From Desulfurococcales archaeon (GTDB lineage Archaea; Thermoproteota; Thermoprotei_A; Sulfolobales; NBVN01), in the NCBI GenBank assembly GCA_026986435.1, contig JALSOP010000122.1:1-32316 (forward strand): a DNA stretch of 32,316 nt. The letters run 5' to 3'. The notes beneath the pieces were generated by a model. It was not told the origin of the DNA and ran no database searches. It worked only from the letters and a program-made list of their open reading frames with translations. The stretch's first letter is position 1, and each line of letters starts with the position of its first letter. Position numbers and translations under genes: made by a program. This document shows, one piece after another, positions 17,008-24,356 of the stretch.

Positions 17008-18435
17008 GTGCTGAAGTTCGACAGGGGCCGCCCTATAGTAATTAACTTCAATGGCAAACCCGTCAAGGCGTTCGAGACCGAGACCGTTGCGGCGGCCCTG
17101 TACGCCTCCGGTGTGATAAAGTTCGGATACTCTGCCGAGAGGCACAGGCCGAGGGGCCCGTTCTGCATGATCGGTAAGTGCAGTCAGTGCCTCATGAGGG
17201 TGAATGGCTACCCACACGTAAGGACATGCATAACACCGGTCGAGGACGGCATGGTCGTTGAGTACGAAGAGGGACATGACGCAGAACTACCTCTACCAAC
17301 TAAGGAGATGCTCGTGAAGAGGGAGGACTTAGAGTATGACGCCGCAATAATCGGTGCGGGTCCCGCAGGCCTCAGCGCCGCCTTAGAGGCGTCTGGCATG
17401 GGCGCGAGGGTCCTCGTCATGGACCAGTCACCTGTCCCAGGGGGACAGCTCGTGAAGCAGACACACAAGTTCTTCGGCACTAAGGAGACCTTTGCAGGGA
17501 TGAGGGGGTTCGAGATAGCGAAGATGCTCACAGACAAGCTAAGGGACAGGGAGAACGTCGATGTGATGCCCTCAACTCAGGTGATAGGCTACTTCCGGAG
17601 GGAGGGCTCCCTAGCAGCTTTCAGGACAGACGGCCTAGGGAAGTACACCCTACTGAGGATAAGGGCAAAGTCAATAATCGTTGCCACAGGCGCCATGGAG
17701 AGGAGCCTGGTGTTCCCTGGGAACGACCTCCCCGGGGTCATGGGGGCCGGAGCCGCACAGACACTCATGAACGTCTTCGGGATCAGGCCAGCTGATGAAC
17801 CCTTGATAATAGGTGCGGGTAACGTCGGTGTGATAGTTGCTTATCAGGCAGTCCAGGCAGGGATCAAGGTTAAGGCGGTCATAGACATAGCCAAGAAATC
17901 GGCAGCGTACCTCGTCCATTCCTCAAAGATAAGGAGGATGGGGATACCGATACTGATGAGGCACACCATAAGGGAGGCCTACGGTAAGGGGAGAGTGGAG
18001 GGGGCGACGATCTATAAAGTCGACGACAACTTCCACCCCATAAAAGGTAGTGAAGTAGACATCGAGGTTGACGGTGTGTGGCTGGCTGTCGGCCTGACCC
18101 CGAGTATCGAGGTGCTGGAGCTGATGGAGGCAGGCATAAAGTTCGTCCCCGAACTCGGCGGCTACGTCCCGCTGAGGCACAGGAACCTCGAGACAACGGT
18201 TCCTGGGGTCTTCGTTGCAGGGGACGCGTCCTGCATCGAGGAGGCCAGCACGGCGATGATGGAGGGGAGGGTGGCCGGCATAGCGGCTGCCATGAAGGCG
18301 GGGCTCGGCGGCGATGAGCACGTCAAGAGGATGAAGGAAGCCATCAAGTGGTTGGATGAGTTCCGCTCAAGCCCCCACTACAGGCGCATACGTGAGGGCT
18401 TGTTTAAGGTAACCCTCGAAGGAGGTGCTTCATGA
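17008..18435 (+). CDS. pdhA: Dye-linked amino acid (proline-type) dehydrogenase alpha subunit
   Basis: FAD- and [2Fe-2S]-containing subunit of a PDH1/HcnABC/sarcosine oxidase-type complex that passes electrons from amine oxidation. Residues 1-80 form a plant-type ferredoxin domain with Cys53, Cys58, Cys61 and Cys74. Next come an FAD-binding AAIIGAGPAGLSAALEASG, an ATGAMERS motif, a second dinucleotide fold PLIIGAGNVGVIVAYQA, and GVFVAGDASC near the end. GTG 17008 is the first normal start, but the open frame reaches back to 16975 and reads RRIYEHPVLKFDRGR, a conserved N-terminus in this family, so the real start may be an unusual codon upstream. The gene overlaps pdhF (ATGA). The order alpha, ferredoxin, small protein, beta matches Thermococcus profundus pdhAFXB. 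The substrate is unproven. Confidence 0.82.
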   Translation: MLKFDRGRPIVINFNGKPVKAFETETVAAALYASGVIKFGYSAERHRPRGPFCMIGKCSQCLMRVNGYPHVRTCITPVEDGMVVEYEEGHDAELPLPTKEMLVKREDLEYDAAIIGAGPAGLSAALEASGMGARVLVMDQSPVPGGQLVKQTHKFFGTKETFAGMRGFEIAKMLTDKLRDRENVDVMPSTQVIGYFRREGSLAAFRTDGLGKYTLLRIRAKSIIVATGAMERSLVFPGNDLPGVMGAGAAQTLMNVFGIRPADEPLIIGAGNVGVIVAYQAVQAGIKVKAVIDIAKKSAAYLVHSSKIRRMGIPILMRHTIREAYGKGRVEGATIYKVDDNFHPIKGSEVDIEVDGVWLAVGLTPSIEVLELMEAGIKFVPELGGYVPLRHRNLETTVPGVFVAGDASCIEEASTAMMEGRVAGIAAAMKAGLGGDEHVKRMKEAIKWLDEFRSSPHYRRIREGLFKVTLEGGAS

Positions 18436-18968
18436 TGCCTGGACTAGAGGAACAAAGGACACTCGAATCCGGCTACGTAACCCTCGATGACCTGAGGAGG
18501 CATGGCAACATACCGCCGGACGAGGTGCTCGAGTCAAGAGCCGTACCGATCTTCGACTGCATAGAGGAAATACCGTGCACGCCCTGCAGGGACGCCTGCC
18601 CAACAGGTGCCGTGATCATGCCAACAATGAACGACAAGCCCAGGGTCAACTGGGAGGCCTGCACAGGCTGCACCCTCTGCGCGCAGGCATGCCCCGGCCT
18701 CGCCATAACCATAGTGAACATACCGTTCGGCAAGAAGGTGCTAAAGGACCCGGCGAAGGCGCTGGTGAGCGTGCCGTACGAGATACTCCCTATACCGAAG
18801 AAAGGTGAGAGGGTGGCGCTGTACGATAGGGGACATAGGTACTTGGGTGAGGGCGAGGTGTTCTCAGTGATCAGGAGCCACAAGTACGGCACGGTGCTTA
18901 TCAACGTGATCGTTCCCAAGGAGATCGCCTTAGAGGTCAAGTTCGTGGAGGTGATTCGAGATGAGTGA
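18432..18968 (+). CDS. pdhF: Ferredoxin-like subunit of the dehydrogenase complex
   Basis: A 178-residue electron-transfer protein with two [4Fe-4S]-type Cys sets: Cys43, Cys49, Cys52 and Cys56 (IPCTPCRDACPTG), then Cys77, Cys80, Cys83 and Cys87 (CTGCTLCAQACPG). A C-terminal region of about 85 residues shows no recognised motif. It would carry electrons between the flavin subunits and an outside acceptor. It starts with an ATGA overlap to pdhA, preceded by GGAGGTG (18421-18427), and overlaps pdhX by eight bases. Size and place match PdhF of T. profundus. Confidence 0.83.
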   Translation: MMPGLEEQRTLESGYVTLDDLRRHGNIPPDEVLESRAVPIFDCIEEIPCTPCRDACPTGAVIMPTMNDKPRVNWEACTGCTLCAQACPGLAITIVNIPFGKKVLKDPAKALVSVPYEILPIPKKGERVALYDRGHRYLGEGEVFSVIRSHKYGTVLINVIVPKEIALEVKFVEVIRDE

Positions 18969-19284
18969 GGGCGGGTCCAGGGGTCACCCAGCGATAGTGT
19001 GCAGGTGTATGGACATAACGGAGGAGGAGATGCTGATGGCGTTCAAGGTCATGGTGAGGTTCCTAGGCACTGCTGACCCGGACACCTACAGGAGGATAAG
19101 CAGTGCAACAACCGGGTACTGCCAGGGAAGGGGATGCCTCCAGCACATGCAGAGGTACCTGGCCAGGGGCATGAGGGAGCTGGGGATAAGCCTCGACATG
19201 GACAGGTTAGTGCCGAAGAAGAGGCCCCCGCTACAGCCAGTCCCAATGGGCCTATTCTATAACCCGGAGGTGCTGGAAGAGTGA
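18961..19284 (+). CDS. pdhX: BFD-like [2Fe-2S] subunit of the dehydrogenase complex
   Basis: A small 107-residue protein with a bacterioferritin-associated-ferredoxin-like motif: Cys14 and Cys16 (CRCMDITEEE), then Cys54 and Cys59 (GYCQGRGC). This CxC...CxxxxC pattern binds one [2Fe-2S] cluster in related oxidases. The C-terminal tail, with PKKRPPLQPVPMG, resembles the linker after BFD domains in HcnB and sarcosine oxidase-type proteins. It sits between pdhF and pdhB with overlaps on both sides (eight and four bases), so complex assembly is likely co-translational. Confidence 0.8.
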   Translation: MSEGGSRGHPAIVCRCMDITEEEMLMAFKVMVRFLGTADPDTYRRISSATTGYCQGRGCLQHMQRYLARGMRELGISLDMDRLVPKKRPPLQPVPMGLFYNPEVLEE

Positions 19285-20414
19285 GGGTTGTCGTAGTAGG
19301 CGGCGGGATAGTTGGGGCACTGACGGCGTACTACCTAACCGAGAGGGGTGCCAAGGTAACGCTACTCGAAAAGAGATACTTCACATACGGCTCCACAGGA
19401 AGGTCGACGGGTTCCTTCACAGCCCAGCAGCATCACCCAGTGCTCGTGAGGGCAGCCCTGAGGAGCATAGAGAGGGTTAAGGAACTCAAGAAGAGGTTCA
19501 TTGAGCAGCGCATCCCGTTCGCATACCGCTTCATGGACGACGAGAGCCCCCACGTGGCGATAGCCATGAGCGATGGCGACGCGGAGAGGTTGGAGAAGGA
19601 AGCACTCATATGGTCGAGCGGTGGGGCAGAGGTACTAAGGGCTGACCCCGAGAAGGTCACTGAGTATGTCCCATTCCTTGACCCCGAGGCTGTTAGGGCT
19701 GCCTTCATAACCCCGAAAGATTACAAAGCGATGCCGCAGCCCATAACCTGGGCATCGATAGCGGCAGCTAGGCTGAACGGTGCCGAAACAAGAACGTATG
19801 AGGAAGTCACCAAGATAGAGCGTGAGGACGACGCGATCGCCGTGAGGACGAGCAGCGGCAGAAAATATGTGGCAGATGCCGTAGTTCTAGCAGCCGGGGC
19901 AGCGACCCCGAAGCTCGCCTCCGGCGTCGGCGACAAGTTCAACGACTTCGTCAAGCCGCATTATGCTGGCGGCCTGGTCACGGAGCCCTTCAGGTACGTT
20001 ATGAAGGCGACTGTCCGTGTTATGAGGTTCTCCTACAGGTTCACGCAGACGGTCAGGAGGGAGTTCGTCGCAACAATAGACGACATGGGGGAGGAGAACC
20101 AGTCACTCGATGTGAGTGACAGCCTCAAGTTCATAGAGAAGGCCAGCACAATAACAGTCAAGCTGATGCCTGTAATGAGGGCAGTGAACATCCTGAGGGT
20201 GTGGGGAGCGTACGTCGACGTAACGGCTGATAGGCTCCCCATAATCGGTTGGTCACTAAACGCTGAGGATGCCGTGTACTACGCCTTCGGATTCAACGAC
20301 TACGGCCTCAGCACCTCCCCCTATCTGGCGGAATTGATCGCCGACGAGGTCAGCAAGGGCGTGAGACACCCTGACCTAGAGTCGTTTCGCCCAGCAAGGG
20401 CCCTGAAGCAGTAA
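19281..20414 (+). CDS. pdhB: FAD-dependent dehydrogenase beta subunit (D-amino acid oxidase fold)
   Basis: The likely substrate-oxidising subunit. The 377 residues start with the Rossmann motif VVVGGGIVGALTAYYL and an LLEKR acidic end, then GSTGRSTG, typical of DAO-family flavin sites, and end with RLPIIGWS and YYAFGFNDYGLSTSP, matching the C-terminal FAD contact region. GTG 19281 overlaps the pdhX stop (GTGA). Relatives oxidise L-proline, sarcosine, glycine (to cyanide) or octopine. The gene order favours the archaeal proline dehydrogenase type, but the substrate is not proven. The next 182 bases form the upstream region of the hydrogenase operon. Confidence 0.85.
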   Translation: MRVVVVGGGIVGALTAYYLTERGAKVTLLEKRYFTYGSTGRSTGSFTAQQHHPVLVRAALRSIERVKELKKRFIEQRIPFAYRFMDDESPHVAIAMSDGDAERLEKEALIWSSGGAEVLRADPEKVTEYVPFLDPEAVRAAFITPKDYKAMPQPITWASIAAARLNGAETRTYEEVTKIEREDDAIAVRTSSGRKYVADAVVLAAGAATPKLASGVGDKFNDFVKPHYAGGLVTEPFRYVMKATVRVMRFSYRFTQTVRREFVATIDDMGEENQSLDVSDSLKFIEKASTITVKLMPVMRAVNILRVWGAYVDVTADRLPIIGWSLNAEDAVYYAFGFNDYGLSTSPYLAELIADEVSKGVRHPDLESFRPARALKQ

Positions 20415-20596: not shown

Positions 20597-21574
20597 GTGA
20601 TCTACTACGCAGGTCCCGACTTCCTTGACAGAGTGATTAGGAGGCTGAGAAGCGACGGCTACGCGACCTACGCCCCCAGCGAGTGGGGGTGGTTCGAGGT
20701 CGAGGGCCACTTCAGCGAGCCTCCAACACCCCCTCCAGTACCCCCGAAGCATGTCTTGAGGAAGACACCATCCCTCGTCTTGAGGGTCAAGGGCACGCGC
20801 TTCGAGTATGTTGAGCCAGACAGGACACCGGTGGCGCTGATAGGCATAAGACCGTGCGATGCTTTCGCCCTTGAGATACTTAGGAAAGTATCGATGTTCT
20901 CACCCACACTCGTTACAGAAAAGCTAAGCAACCTCTTCATGGTTGTTGAGGAGTGCCCCAACCCTTCCCCCACATGCTTCTGCGCCGATGCCGGGACAGG
21001 GCCAGACGCCAGGGTGGGTGACCTCGCCTATATGAGGCTCGGCGACGGGTTCCTAGTGAGGCCCTTGACCGAGAGGGGCAAGGCCCTCCTCGTATCGGTG
21101 GGGATCGATGAGCTGGCGCCGAAGGAGGCGCTTGAGACGTACAATGACATAGTAAATAAGGCGACGAAGAGGGCCAGAATTGAGCCCTCCCCCCACCATC
21201 ACGCAGATGAACTGAAGGAAGCTACCTGGGAGGACTGGGAGAGAGCATCAAGAAACTGCGCTGGCTGCGGCTCCTGCTCGATATCGTGCCCGACCTGCTT
21301 CTGCTTCGACATAAGGGAGGTGCATGAGGGCCCAGATGAGGGCGGCAGGGTGGTGGTGTGGGACACCTGCCTCTCCCTCTACTTCGCCGCCATGGCCTCA
21401 CACAACCCGAGGGAGAAGATACCGGCGAGGCTCAGGCAGTTCGTGATGCACAAGCTGGTGTGGTGGCGCGAGCAGTTCGGGATAACCGGGTGCGTGGGGT
21501 GCGGGAGGTGCACTTCCCTCTGCCCATTCAACGTGGGGATCATAACGGCCGTGAAGGAGGTGGTTAAGAAGTGA
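20597..21574 (+). CDS. hydB: Cytosolic hydrogenase beta subunit (sulfhydrogenase HydB type)
   Basis: Iron-sulfur subunit linking the [NiFe] module to the flavin module or to sulfur reduction. The 325 residues show the HydB-specific IGIRPCDAFALEIL and CPNPSPTCFCADAGTGP, then two [4Fe-4S] motifs: CAGCGSCSISCPTC (mid-protein) and CVGCGRCTSLCPF (near the C-terminus). GTG 20597 follows a GGTGA. It is the first gene of a beta-gamma-delta-alpha operon as in Pyrococcus furiosus hydrogenase I, and its stop overlaps the hydG start. Length is close to the family norm. Whether the complex also reduces polysulfide is not readable from the sequence. Confidence 0.9.
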   Translation: MIYYAGPDFLDRVIRRLRSDGYATYAPSEWGWFEVEGHFSEPPTPPPVPPKHVLRKTPSLVLRVKGTRFEYVEPDRTPVALIGIRPCDAFALEILRKVSMFSPTLVTEKLSNLFMVVEECPNPSPTCFCADAGTGPDARVGDLAYMRLGDGFLVRPLTERGKALLVSVGIDELAPKEALETYNDIVNKATKRARIEPSPHHHADELKEATWEDWERASRNCAGCGSCSISCPTCFCFDIREVHEGPDEGGRVVVWDTCLSLYFAAMASHNPREKIPARLRQFVMHKLVWWREQFGITGCVGCGRCTSLCPFNVGIITAVKEVVKK

Positions 21575-22380
21575 TGGACTCAGTTACCCATAAACTCACA
21601 CCCATAAAGGCGGTTATAGCGGACGTCATCAAGGAGGCCGAGGACACAGTAACCCTAGTTATGAGGGTGTCCCCGCAGAAGGTCCCCGAGCCAGGGCAGT
21701 TCGCAATGCTGTACGCGCCCCTCGTGGGTGAGTCGGCCATATCTTTCAGCGGGATAAGGGACGGGGTCGTAGAGCACACCGTCAGGCGTGTTGGTAAGGT
21801 AACAACAGTCCTAACGAGCCTCTCACCCGGTGACGTGATTGGGTGGAGGGGGCCATACGGCAAGCCGTGGCCCATGAGCGAGGCGAAGGGCAGGGACCTC
21901 ATAGTCGTCGCTGGTGGGATAGGTATGGCGCCCCTCAGGCCCGTCATACACAGGAGGATAGATGAGGGCGAGGCAGAGAGGACGATACTCCTGTACGGCG
22001 CGCGCTCACCCGACCAGCTCCTCTACAGGAAGGAGCTGAAGGAGTGGCAGGAAGCGGGCGTGGATGTCAGGCTCACCATCGACAAGCCTCACCCGTCTTG
22101 GAGCGGGAGGACTGGGTTCGTGACAGAGCTCATACCGGAGGCGCTTGAAACCGCCAAGGACCCTGTGGCGTTCATCTGCGGGCCAGAAATAATGATGAAG
22201 GTAGCGATAGGGGTGTTCGAGAAGTCGGGCATTGACCTCAGCAGGGTATGGGTCTCGCTAGAGAGGAAGATGAGGTGTGGTTTCGGCTCTTGCGGATACT
22301 GCCAGATAGGCCCTATCTTCGTGTGCAGGCACGGCCCCACATTCAGGGCGGATGAGCTGAGGTGTGTCCTGGGATGGTGA
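21571..22380 (+). CDS. hydG: Cytosolic hydrogenase gamma subunit (FAD/NAD(P)H reductase)
   Basis: A flavin reductase-type subunit that exchanges electrons with NAD(P)H. The 269 residues contain an FAD-binding barrel ending in GESAISFSGI, the nucleotide-binding motif VVAGGIGMAPLRPVI, a FICGPEIMMK stretch and a C-terminal [2Fe-2S] site, CGFGSCGYCQIG followed by a later Cys (FVCRHG), as in the PyrK/HydG family. GTG 21571 lies 10 bases after GGAGG and overlaps the hydB stop; ATG 21574 follows directly and may be used instead. Partners are HydB and, through it, the HydD/HydA core. Confidence 0.9.
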   Translation: MMDSVTHKLTPIKAVIADVIKEAEDTVTLVMRVSPQKVPEPGQFAMLYAPLVGESAISFSGIRDGVVEHTVRRVGKVTTVLTSLSPGDVIGWRGPYGKPWPMSEAKGRDLIVVAGGIGMAPLRPVIHRRIDEGEAERTILLYGARSPDQLLYRKELKEWQEAGVDVRLTIDKPHPSWSGRTGFVTELIPEALETAKDPVAFICGPEIMMKVAIGVFEKSGIDLSRVWVSLERKMRCGFGSCGYCQIGPIFVCRHGPTFRADELRCVLGW

Positions 22381-23039
22381 GGAAGCTCAAGGTAGCCGGG
22401 CTCAAGCTCGCCTCATGCAGCGGGTGTCTAGCGACCATAGCCGACGCCCTGCTCCCGTACATCCTTAAGGGCGATGTCGAGCTTGGATGCTTCGCCCTAC
22501 TGACTGACCCGGAGATGGATGGGGAGTACGACGTCGGCTTCGTGGAGGGCTCCGTCGCGACAGAGGAGCAGGAGGCGGAGCTGAAGGAGTTCAGGAAGAG
22601 GGTGAAGTTCCTCATTGCGGTGGGGGCGTGCGCACTCTTCGGTGGCCCGCAGTCAATAAATCCGGGCATCGCTAAGCTGGTTGAGGACGTTGTGGGAGTC
22701 GACTACAGGATACCTGGTTGCCCCATAGAGGAGTGGCAGGTGAAGGAGGTAATCAACCACCTCATGAGGGGAACCAGGCCGCCGAAGGAGACGGAAACCC
22801 TCTGCACGGAGTGCAGGAGGATGAACGTCCAGTGCGTAGCCATAACTGAGGGGCTGACGTGCCTCGGGCCCGCCGTGATGGCCGGATGCAGTGCCCTATG
22901 CCCAAGCTTCGGCAGGGGGTGCTACGGGTGCAGGGGGCCCTCACCAGGCACCTCAGTCAAGCCCATACTCGAGCTTGACCCTAACGCCCTGAATAAGGCA
23001 ATCGTTTCGCAGGAGAAGGTGAGGAGGGGATGGAGGTAA
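22374..23039 (+). CDS. hydD: Cytosolic [NiFe] hydrogenase small (delta) subunit
   Basis: Carries the iron-sulfur relay next to the [NiFe] site. With ATG 22374 (221 residues) it begins MVRKLKVAGLKLASCSGC; the CSGC pair provides proximal-cluster ligands together with GACALFGGPQS and the IPGCPI motif. A C-terminal Cys-rich region (LCTECRRM, CVAITEGLTCLGP, CSALCPSFGRGCYGC) supplies further cluster ligands. An earlier in-frame GTG at 22362 would add four residues; I prefer the ATG, which lies about 11 bases after GAGG. It overlaps hydG by seven bases and hydA by ten. Confidence 0.9.
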   Translation: MVRKLKVAGLKLASCSGCLATIADALLPYILKGDVELGCFALLTDPEMDGEYDVGFVEGSVATEEQEAELKEFRKRVKFLIAVGACALFGGPQSINPGIAKLVEDVVGVDYRIPGCPIEEWQVKEVINHLMRGTRPPKETETLCTECRRMNVQCVAITEGLTCLGPAVMAGCSALCPSFGRGCYGCRGPSPGTSVKPILELDPNALNKAIVSQEKVRRGWR

Positions 23040-24271
23040 AGATCCACAGGCTAGGCAGGGTTGAAGGAGACGGAGGTATAGAGATCGTCATAGGGCCAGC
23101 GGGCATCGAGGAATCCAGAGTATACGTCTACGAAGCAAAGAGGTACATAGAGAAGGCACTGAGGGGGAGGCACTACAGCGAGGTCCCGGACATAACCTCG
23201 AGGGTCTGCGGCCTCTGCCCGACATCTTACTCTGTGGTGTCGAGCACGGCGATAGAGAAGTGCCTTGGCTGTGAGCCGCCGGAGCACGTGGTGAGGCTGA
23301 GAAGGGCAGCGCAGCTCTGCGAGTGGGTCAACTCCCACGCTGTCCACGTGGCACTACTCCACGCACCGGATTTGATTAAGTTCGGGAAGAGGGATCCGGA
23401 ATGGGCGAGGATCGAGCTAGCGAAGGCCGCCTACACAATAAGGAAGTGGTCTAAGACAATGTCCAAGGCGCTAGTCGGGCGCGCCATACACCCAGTCAAC
23501 ATCAAGGTCGGCGGGCTATGGTCATCACCAAAGGCGGGCCTCGTCAAGACCCTGCTCAGGTCGTTCGACGAAGTGCTGTCAACTGCCACCAGGCTCCTCG
23601 AGATCGTGCTGGAGCTGAAGAGGCCTGAGTGGCCGCCCCTAAGGGAGGGCGGTTCAGTGCTCGAGGAGAGCTACCCACTTCTAGGGCAGGAAGTGGTGCT
23701 GATGAACTACTCCGGCGACGCCCTAAGCCTCTACACGATGCTTGAAAAGGAGAAGCCACCGTACTCCAACGCACCTAGACTGAGACATAAAGGCAAGGCA
23801 TTCTCCTTAGGCCCCATACCGAGGTACATGAGGTTCGACCACAGGCTGAGGCCCGAGGCAAGGGACCTGCTAAAGCAGGCGGGTTTCACACCGAGGAGCA
23901 TGGCTGACTCGATAGTCATTAGAGCGGCCGAGATAATCCACGCGCTCCTCGAGGTCAGGGATACGGTGGAGGAGATCGATAGATATAGAGTATGGAACAC
24001 CGAGTGCCCAAAGGCCCCAGGCGAGGAAAAAGTCTGCTTCGCCGCCATTGAGGCACCTAGAGGCATTCTATACCACAGGTACGTCATAGGCGCTGACGGC
24101 AGGGTGATAGAGGCCGAGCTCCTGCCGCCAACAGTAGCCAACCTAGCGGCCGCTGAGGAGGACATGAATCACATACCCAGCGAGCTCCTCAGGAGCAGGG
24201 AGACTGCCGAATGGGCGTCTGCACTGATCGTGAGAAACTACGACCCATGCATCTCCTGCGCGACGAGATGA
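23030..24271 (+). CDS. hydA: Cytosolic [NiFe] hydrogenase large (alpha) subunit, no C-terminal extension
   Basis: Holds the [NiFe] active site. The 413 residues start with GRVEGDGGIEI (Glu12 of the conserved RxEG). The first Cys pair is RVCGLCPTSYS, with Cys60 and Cys63; the usual CxxCxxxH His is Tyr67. The second pair is Cys407 and Cys410 in DPCISCATR. The stop codon follows Arg413 directly, so there is no peptide beyond the site where a maturation protease normally cuts. All four Ni ligands are present, so metal binding is expected. The gene order hydBGDA and the soluble partners point to a group 3-type bidirectional enzyme. Confidence 0.92.
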   Translation: MEVKIHRLGRVEGDGGIEIVIGPAGIEESRVYVYEAKRYIEKALRGRHYSEVPDITSRVCGLCPTSYSVVSSTAIEKCLGCEPPEHVVRLRRAAQLCEWVNSHAVHVALLHAPDLIKFGKRDPEWARIELAKAAYTIRKWSKTMSKALVGRAIHPVNIKVGGLWSSPKAGLVKTLLRSFDEVLSTATRLLEIVLELKRPEWPPLREGGSVLEESYPLLGQEVVLMNYSGDALSLYTMLEKEKPPYSNAPRLRHKGKAFSLGPIPRYMRFDHRLRPEARDLLKQAGFTPRSMADSIVIRAAEIIHALLEVRDTVEEIDRYRVWNTECPKAPGEEKVCFAAIEAPRGILYHRYVIGADGRVIEAELLPPTVANLAAAEEDMNHIPSELLRSRETAEWASALIVRNYDPCISCATR

Positions 24272-24291
24272 GGGCCTCCGACGCAGCCGAG

Positions 24292-24308
24292 GGAGCAGTC
24301 ACGGCTCC
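24292..24308 (+). terminator. Possible terminator hairpin after hydA
   Basis: GGAGC (24292-24296) pairs with GCTCC (24304-24308) across seven bases, about 20 bases after the hydA stop, followed by a pyrimidine-rich TCTCCGTCC. The stem is short and there is no long T run, so this is tentative. Confidence 0.2.
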
Positions 24309-24356
24309 TCTCCGTCCGACGGGTCTTCATCGGCCCAATAACTCACCAGCGACTGC

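Follow-up and report, generated by a model that had tools for sequence, protein, structure and literature searches.

The C-terminal tail of [NiFe]-hydrogenase large subunits may act as a protease signal, as a wedge holding the active site open or as a proofreading gate. In other large subunits the protease cut falls after the H/R of the DPCxxCxxH/R motif (PMC2670836). The HydA of P. furiosus SHI (PF0891-0894, group 3b) carries the tail -VVRL, the short removable peptide to which the original prediction referred; its removal by FrxA is needed for activity, and recombinant SHI is inactive when FrxA and HycI are both absent (PMC2865534). In T. kodakarensis, the tail of immature HyhL pushes the N-terminus out of place, and the N-terminus then brings HypA to the site (PMC7294309). 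A natural tail-less relative must achieve this differently. Engineered truncations had a mixed outcome: truncated HoxG still matures and is active, whereas truncated HoxH (group 3d) and Hyd-2 (HybC) were nickel-free or without cofactor, with HoxH lacking nickel (as told in PMC7294309). The same paper calls for tests of whether further large subunits tolerate the absence of the tail. Naturally extension-less enzymes are listed for groups 2b/2d (H2-sensing), 4c (CODH-linked), 4e (Ech-type) and 4g, and RH, which lacks an extension, relies on the canonical Hyp machinery (PMC7294309); a second list comprises 2b, 2d, 4c and 4e (PMC12134894). The precedent claimed earlier for H2-sensing and CooH-type enzymes thus exists, in 2b/2d and 4c. 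The passages considered from PMC7294309, PMC12134894, PMC6769069, PMC7654741, PMC2865534, PMC2670836 and PMC5037454 do not name group 3 as naturally extension-less, and the titles and abstract openings listed by literature searches, mainly of freely available papers, contained no tail-less group-3 enzyme. The tail-less state is known in other groups, and a group-3b-like case would be an addition to the lists as published in those passages.

The window, a stretch of 32,316 nucleotides forming one contig of an archaeal draft genome (1.54 Mb, 168 contigs, 93.6% complete), contains four overlapping genes at 20597-24271 on the plus strand that encode HydB-, HydG-, HydD- and HydA-like subunits of the archaeal sulfhydrogenase type in intact order, hydBGDA (Table 1). 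HydA, whose frame opens with the ATG at 23030, matches PF00374 with 79 bits and carries the ligand cysteines of the R58-C60-C63 motif as well as C407 and C410; in alignment A1 all four Cys ligands, the EAPRG motif with R344, and E41 are kept. Its best NCBIfam match is ShyA (186 bits, far below the equivalog cut-off of 700), and in the PDB it scores best against alpha chains of sulfhydrogenase 1 and the alpha subunit of a cytosolic NiFe-hydrogenase (9e1j, 9nez, 5yxy), with P. furiosus SHI alpha first (E 6e-36). The locus resembles P. furiosus SHI in its four-subunit set, which is that of group 3b, and in its L1 and L2 cysteines, but it differs in having no tail and an Arg end where P. furiosus has -VVRL, and the relationship is distant (128 bits over 410 residues).

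H2-sensing 2b/2d hydrogenases are sensors with a signalling partner and without diaphorase subunits; here the operon contains hydB- and hydG-like subunits, and no kinase was found among the nine neighbourhood proteins scanned. CooH/Ech-type enzymes (4c/4e) have membrane subunits in the operon and a group-4 sequence; no membrane-subunit family was matched among the same nine neighbours, and HydA fits group-3 models best. HydA most likely serves as large subunit in a group-3b-like [NiFe]-hydrogenase of the sulfhydrogenase type, with its activity (NADP(H)-dependent H2 turnover in group 3b) predicted only, and both gene order and family matches agree with the earlier assignment to a catalytic-type operon. 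Like the natural extension-less groups, its gene stops directly after the L2 motif, but those are sensors, CODH-linked, Ech-type or uncharacterised 4g enzymes whereas this is a group-3b-like operon (PMC7294309). It also resembles the engineered tail-less HoxG, HoxH and HybC in that the gene encodes the processed form; however, those are laboratory constructs, whereas the state of HydA has been kept by evolution (PMC7294309). Two neighbouring features can be added. The HydG-like subunit scores higher against AsrB of anaerobic sulfite reductase (190.6 bits) than against ShyC or HydG (139 bits). Upstream of hydB, at 17008-20414 on the plus strand, four genes encode a Fer2_4/pyridine-nucleotide oxidoreductase, a 4Fe-4S protein, a BFD-like [2Fe-2S] protein and a DAO-type FAD oxidoreductase, a set suggestive of an amino-acid or opine dehydrogenase complex adjoining the hydrogenase.

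Table 1. Features of the hydBGDA region, in window coordinates
Feature	Position	Strand	Basis
hydB-like subunit (4Fe-4S; sulfhydrogenase beta / AsrA-like)	20597..21574	+	Pfam Fer4_22; NCBIfam ShyB/HydB/AsrA, all under NCBIfam cut-offs
hydG-like FAD/NAD(P)-binding subunit	21571..22380	+	NCBIfam best AsrB, then PRK08345 and DHOD electron-transfer models, ShyC/HydG next
hydD small subunit	22362..23039	+	Oxidored_q6; NCBIfam HydD/ShyD
hydA, extension-less [NiFe]-hydrogenase large subunit, 413 aa	23030..24271	+	PF00374; NCBIfam ShyA; PDB P. furiosus SHI alpha
L1 motif R58-V-C60-G-L-C63	23201..23218	+	Translation and alignment A1
L2 motif D405-PCISCAT-R413, ends the protein (D405 24242-24244; R413 24266-24268)	24242..24268	+	Translation, alignment A1
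TGA stop at maturation cleavage position	24269..24271	+	Sequence; identical stop in the congener G159
Candidate C/D-box-like small RNA abutting the hydA stop	24269..24336	-	Almost unchanged in G159; related blocks in 10 f8 genomes

The 413-codon hydA frame closes with GAC CCA TGC ATC TCC TGC GCG ACG AGA TGA, so that the product ends in NYDPCISCATR with zero residues past the L2 motif. Its closing residue, R413, fits the wide DPCxxCxxH/R motif (PMC2670836), and since the cut in other large subunits follows the H/R of that motif, the stop sits exactly at the cleavage site and leaves nothing to remove, as originally predicted. The same end is found in a second genome of the genus (G159, 99% complete), which is 84% identical to the window over 18.7 kb of this region and encodes a 413-residue HydA of 86% identity ending GCG ACT AGG TGA (ATR-TGA). 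The two hydA genes differ by 44 substitutions at first, 23 at second and 141 at third codon positions, a distribution that shows purifying selection on hydA in the genus.

Both genomes are many-contig drafts, which would leave room for an assembly or base-calling error at the stop; however, two genomes this different share the HydA end, and an artefact has next to no probability. A miscalled stop or frameshift near 24269-24271, named beforehand as the finding that would overturn the prediction, is in this way ruled out. A tail could also be supplied by recoding, if ribosomes either read through the TGA or slipped by -1 into a frame of 34 codons whose ATG/GTG start is at 24268. Both frames are open beyond the stop in both genomes of the genus, where the DNA is very similar, but this conserved DNA is a block that is also found in f8 genomes, where it lies between unrelated genes with no hydA beside it. 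In the read-through frame both substitutions within the block fall at second positions, further downstream the changes in the -1 frame follow no coding pattern, and no FLK-like tail is encoded past the stop. Recoding is accordingly very improbable, and a tail from either frame is ruled out by the substitution pattern together with the homology of the block to an RNA-like element.

We surveyed 229 genomes of the class, 48 of which contained a HydA match at E <= 1e-30 (55 matches). The C-terminus was readable in 53, after exclusion of one match cut by a contig end (G149) and one without an L1 motif (G157). A tail of 5-15 residues follows CxxH in 45 of these 53 rows and is absent from the other eight. 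Among the best 80 named loci of the GTDB matches listed, 79 were readable (L273 was not read); all 79 carry a tail of 4-31 residues, which in 52 is exactly nine residues long (FLKLEMDRG and similar). Pooling the class rows with these best 79 named homologues among the matches listed, 124 of 132 combine a tail with a closing His, six are tail-less with His, and the two of the window genus are tail-less with Arg. The tail is near-universal in HydA homologues outside the eight tail-less rows, and the expectation that would have spoken against the prediction, that all close homologues are extended, fails on the congener and two other clades without extension. The survey also contained a second, divergent HydA-like clade (L055, L056, L057, L060-L063) with the N-terminus DKVFGHLE or DRVFGHLE, DPCLPC and short tails, which co-occurs with the main HydA in several genomes and beside which the tail-less g2 pair (L064, L066) branches.

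In an IQ-TREE phylogeny of the 53 class rows, the tail-less rows form three starred clades, namely the window with G159, G110-G113, and G142 with G143, and three changes of tail state are forced. When 16 of the 79 named rows were added, a single clade of all eight tail-less rows was rejected (p-AU 1e-41), as was a clade uniting the window pair with G110-G113 of family f5 (p-AU 0.0023). A single loss is ruled out by the starred branches and the AU tests, and the phylogeny indicates that the tail was lost at least three times in this archaeal class. The branch leading to the window pair is long (1.55-1.66 changes per column), which calls for caution, and the place of the pair moves, from next to the f1 clade with 53 rows to next to the f4/f5 clade with the 16 named rows added. 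A shorter N-terminus that might compensate for the missing tail, given the HyhL-HypA 'crane arm', was looked for in alignment A1, where no consistent difference was seen. Repeated natural losses within a single enzyme family, for which the tailed sisters serve as controls, provide a comparative series for tail tolerance.

The closing R413 is unique to the window genus, whereas His occupies this position in 118 of 118 core homologues. Arg also closes L2 in the two group-4 large subunits of the same genome, on contigs C145 (TER) and C19 (TDR), and both HydA (E41) and the C145 subunit have a Glu 19 residues ahead of the first Cys of L1, as read from the sequence. These group-4 subunits differ from HydA in their 27- and 26-residue tails and their group-4-type operons. 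Group 1 enzymes bind a divalent cation through the equivalent Glu together with the C-terminal His. Arg413 may substitute for this cation through a salt bridge to E41, as may also hold in group 4. In the L1 motif, Tyr takes the place of the His of CxxCxxxH (23201-23230), both in the window HydA and in 78 of the 79 named homologues, the best among the matches listed; on this distribution the Tyr is taken as a trait of the HydA family and no defect.

The genome encodes one HycI-type protease (PF01750; C145:26587-26925), which in NCBIfam passes the cut-off of the superfamily model TIGR00072 only, with HycI next. Its gene shares an operon with the group-4-type large subunit that ends DPCISCTER plus the 27-residue tail; the second such subunit, on C19, ends DPCFSCTDR plus 26 residues, and C41 encodes an Nqo4-like protein without the Cys motif. 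The genome search suggested with the original prediction thus turns up one protease, and it lies beside a tailed group-4 enzyme. A protease profile (A2) built from 14 proteases and searched against the 229 genomes gave matches of at least 100 bits in 29 of 38 tailed versus 3 of 8 tail-less genomes (Fisher p 0.044, kinship and threshold choice ignored). The correlation is weak and not clean: the tail-less f5 genomes G111, G112 and G113 keep proteases of 101-124 bits, six tailed genomes (G004, G145, G146, G148, G151, G164) have weak matches only, and three others (G161, G162, G127) have no match to this profile. For this reason we limit the protease claim to alternative substrates. A group-4-type large subunit lies within a few kb of the protease in G000 (the window genome), G159, G142, G143, G111 and G112 and about 9 kb away in G113, and its tail was read in all of these except G111, in which the stretch ended inside the gene's end; the remaining tail-less genome, G110, gave no protease match with profile A2. 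Because of these neighbours, every protease found in tail-less genomes has another possible substrate. Among the Hyp genes, HypD is present in the window genome and HypA in G159. HypC (PF01455) had no match in either genome (93.6% and 99% complete, both drafts in which assembly gaps are possible), and it was present in 6 of 6 other genomes searched.

Altogether, we consider it highly probable that HydA belongs to a group-3b-like hydrogenase that naturally matures independently of the protease, and that the class has seen such a loss at least three times. The stop of hydA at the point where relatives are cut after nickel insertion means that the protein is made already in its processed form. 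The Hyp machinery would then insert Fe(CN)2CO and Ni directly into the tail-less HydA, whose C-terminus would close over the active site without endoproteolysis, while assembly with HydD would supply whatever proofreading remains and the genome's HycI would serve the two tailed group-4 enzymes. On this reading the Hyp machinery most likely supplies HydA with its NiFe centre while no proteolytic proofreading takes place, a maturation route that, like the catalytic activity of HydA, we infer from sequence. RH and truncated HoxG are precedents for it, whereas the failed truncations of HoxH and Hyd-2, the unclean protease correlation and the lack of a HypC match in the genus weigh against it. The original prediction of maturation without the endopeptidase checkpoint stands in that there is nothing to cleave, and is tempered by the HycI-type protease that the genome encodes. 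If correct, this would be a group-3b-like hydrogenase needing one maturation gene fewer, which would be useful for heterologous production.

HycI might nevertheless act on HydA as a non-proteolytic chaperone or Ni sensor, giving a checkpoint without cleavage. The enzyme is encoded in the genome, a protease is described as binding to a large subunit from which the peptide is missing (PMC7654741), and a single T. kodakarensis protease serves group 3B and group 4D enzymes (cited in PMC7654741); the location of hycI in a group-4 operon with its own tailed substrate speaks against such a role, which we regard as unlikely. Slightly less likely still is that HydA is a degenerate or non-catalytic homologue, a scaffold or relic for which the tail is irrelevant. 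Its activity may possibly have been lost, given the long branch and the nine departures (H413R, P37K, E14D and six others) among 61 columns of strong conservation. Against this, the four Cys, R344 of EAPRG and E41 are retained, hydA is under purifying selection, hydB, hydG and hydD are intact, and the other two tail-less clades keep the His and normal motifs. Beyond the protease-independent reading of HydA itself, it is tempting to speculate that the group-3b-like hydrogenases of the class repeatedly evolved checkpoint-free maturation, with the window genus having gone furthest (tail lost, C-terminal metal-liganding His changed to Arg, and HypC, the chaperone for Fe(CN)2CO, gone), a generalisation that we hold to be rather doubtful.

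The DNA beside the stop is conserved in its own right. Over 24272-24337 the window and G159 differ at just two positions, and homologous intergenic blocks occur in 10 of the 229 class genomes, all of family f8 and at another locus, which in the three genomes with genes listed lies between an HD-domain-like and a reductase-like gene. In the minus-strand reading, GCCGATGA stands at one end of the blocks and CTGA or CGGA close to the opposite end, with a variable middle between them, which suggests a candidate C/D-box-like RNA. The block matched no tRNA or Rfam family, its plus-strand fold is no better than that of shuffles (z -0.46), and a search for an rRNA target of the window copy gave no duplex clearly above the plus-strand control. 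We conjecture that a rearrangement placing this RNA element against hydA removed the tail in the window genus; in the other tail-less clades the sequences after the hydA stop contain no such block. In four f8 loci (L106, L107, L109, L110), a second conserved RNA-like block lies beside the first, and up to 16 of its bases can pair with 23S rRNA.
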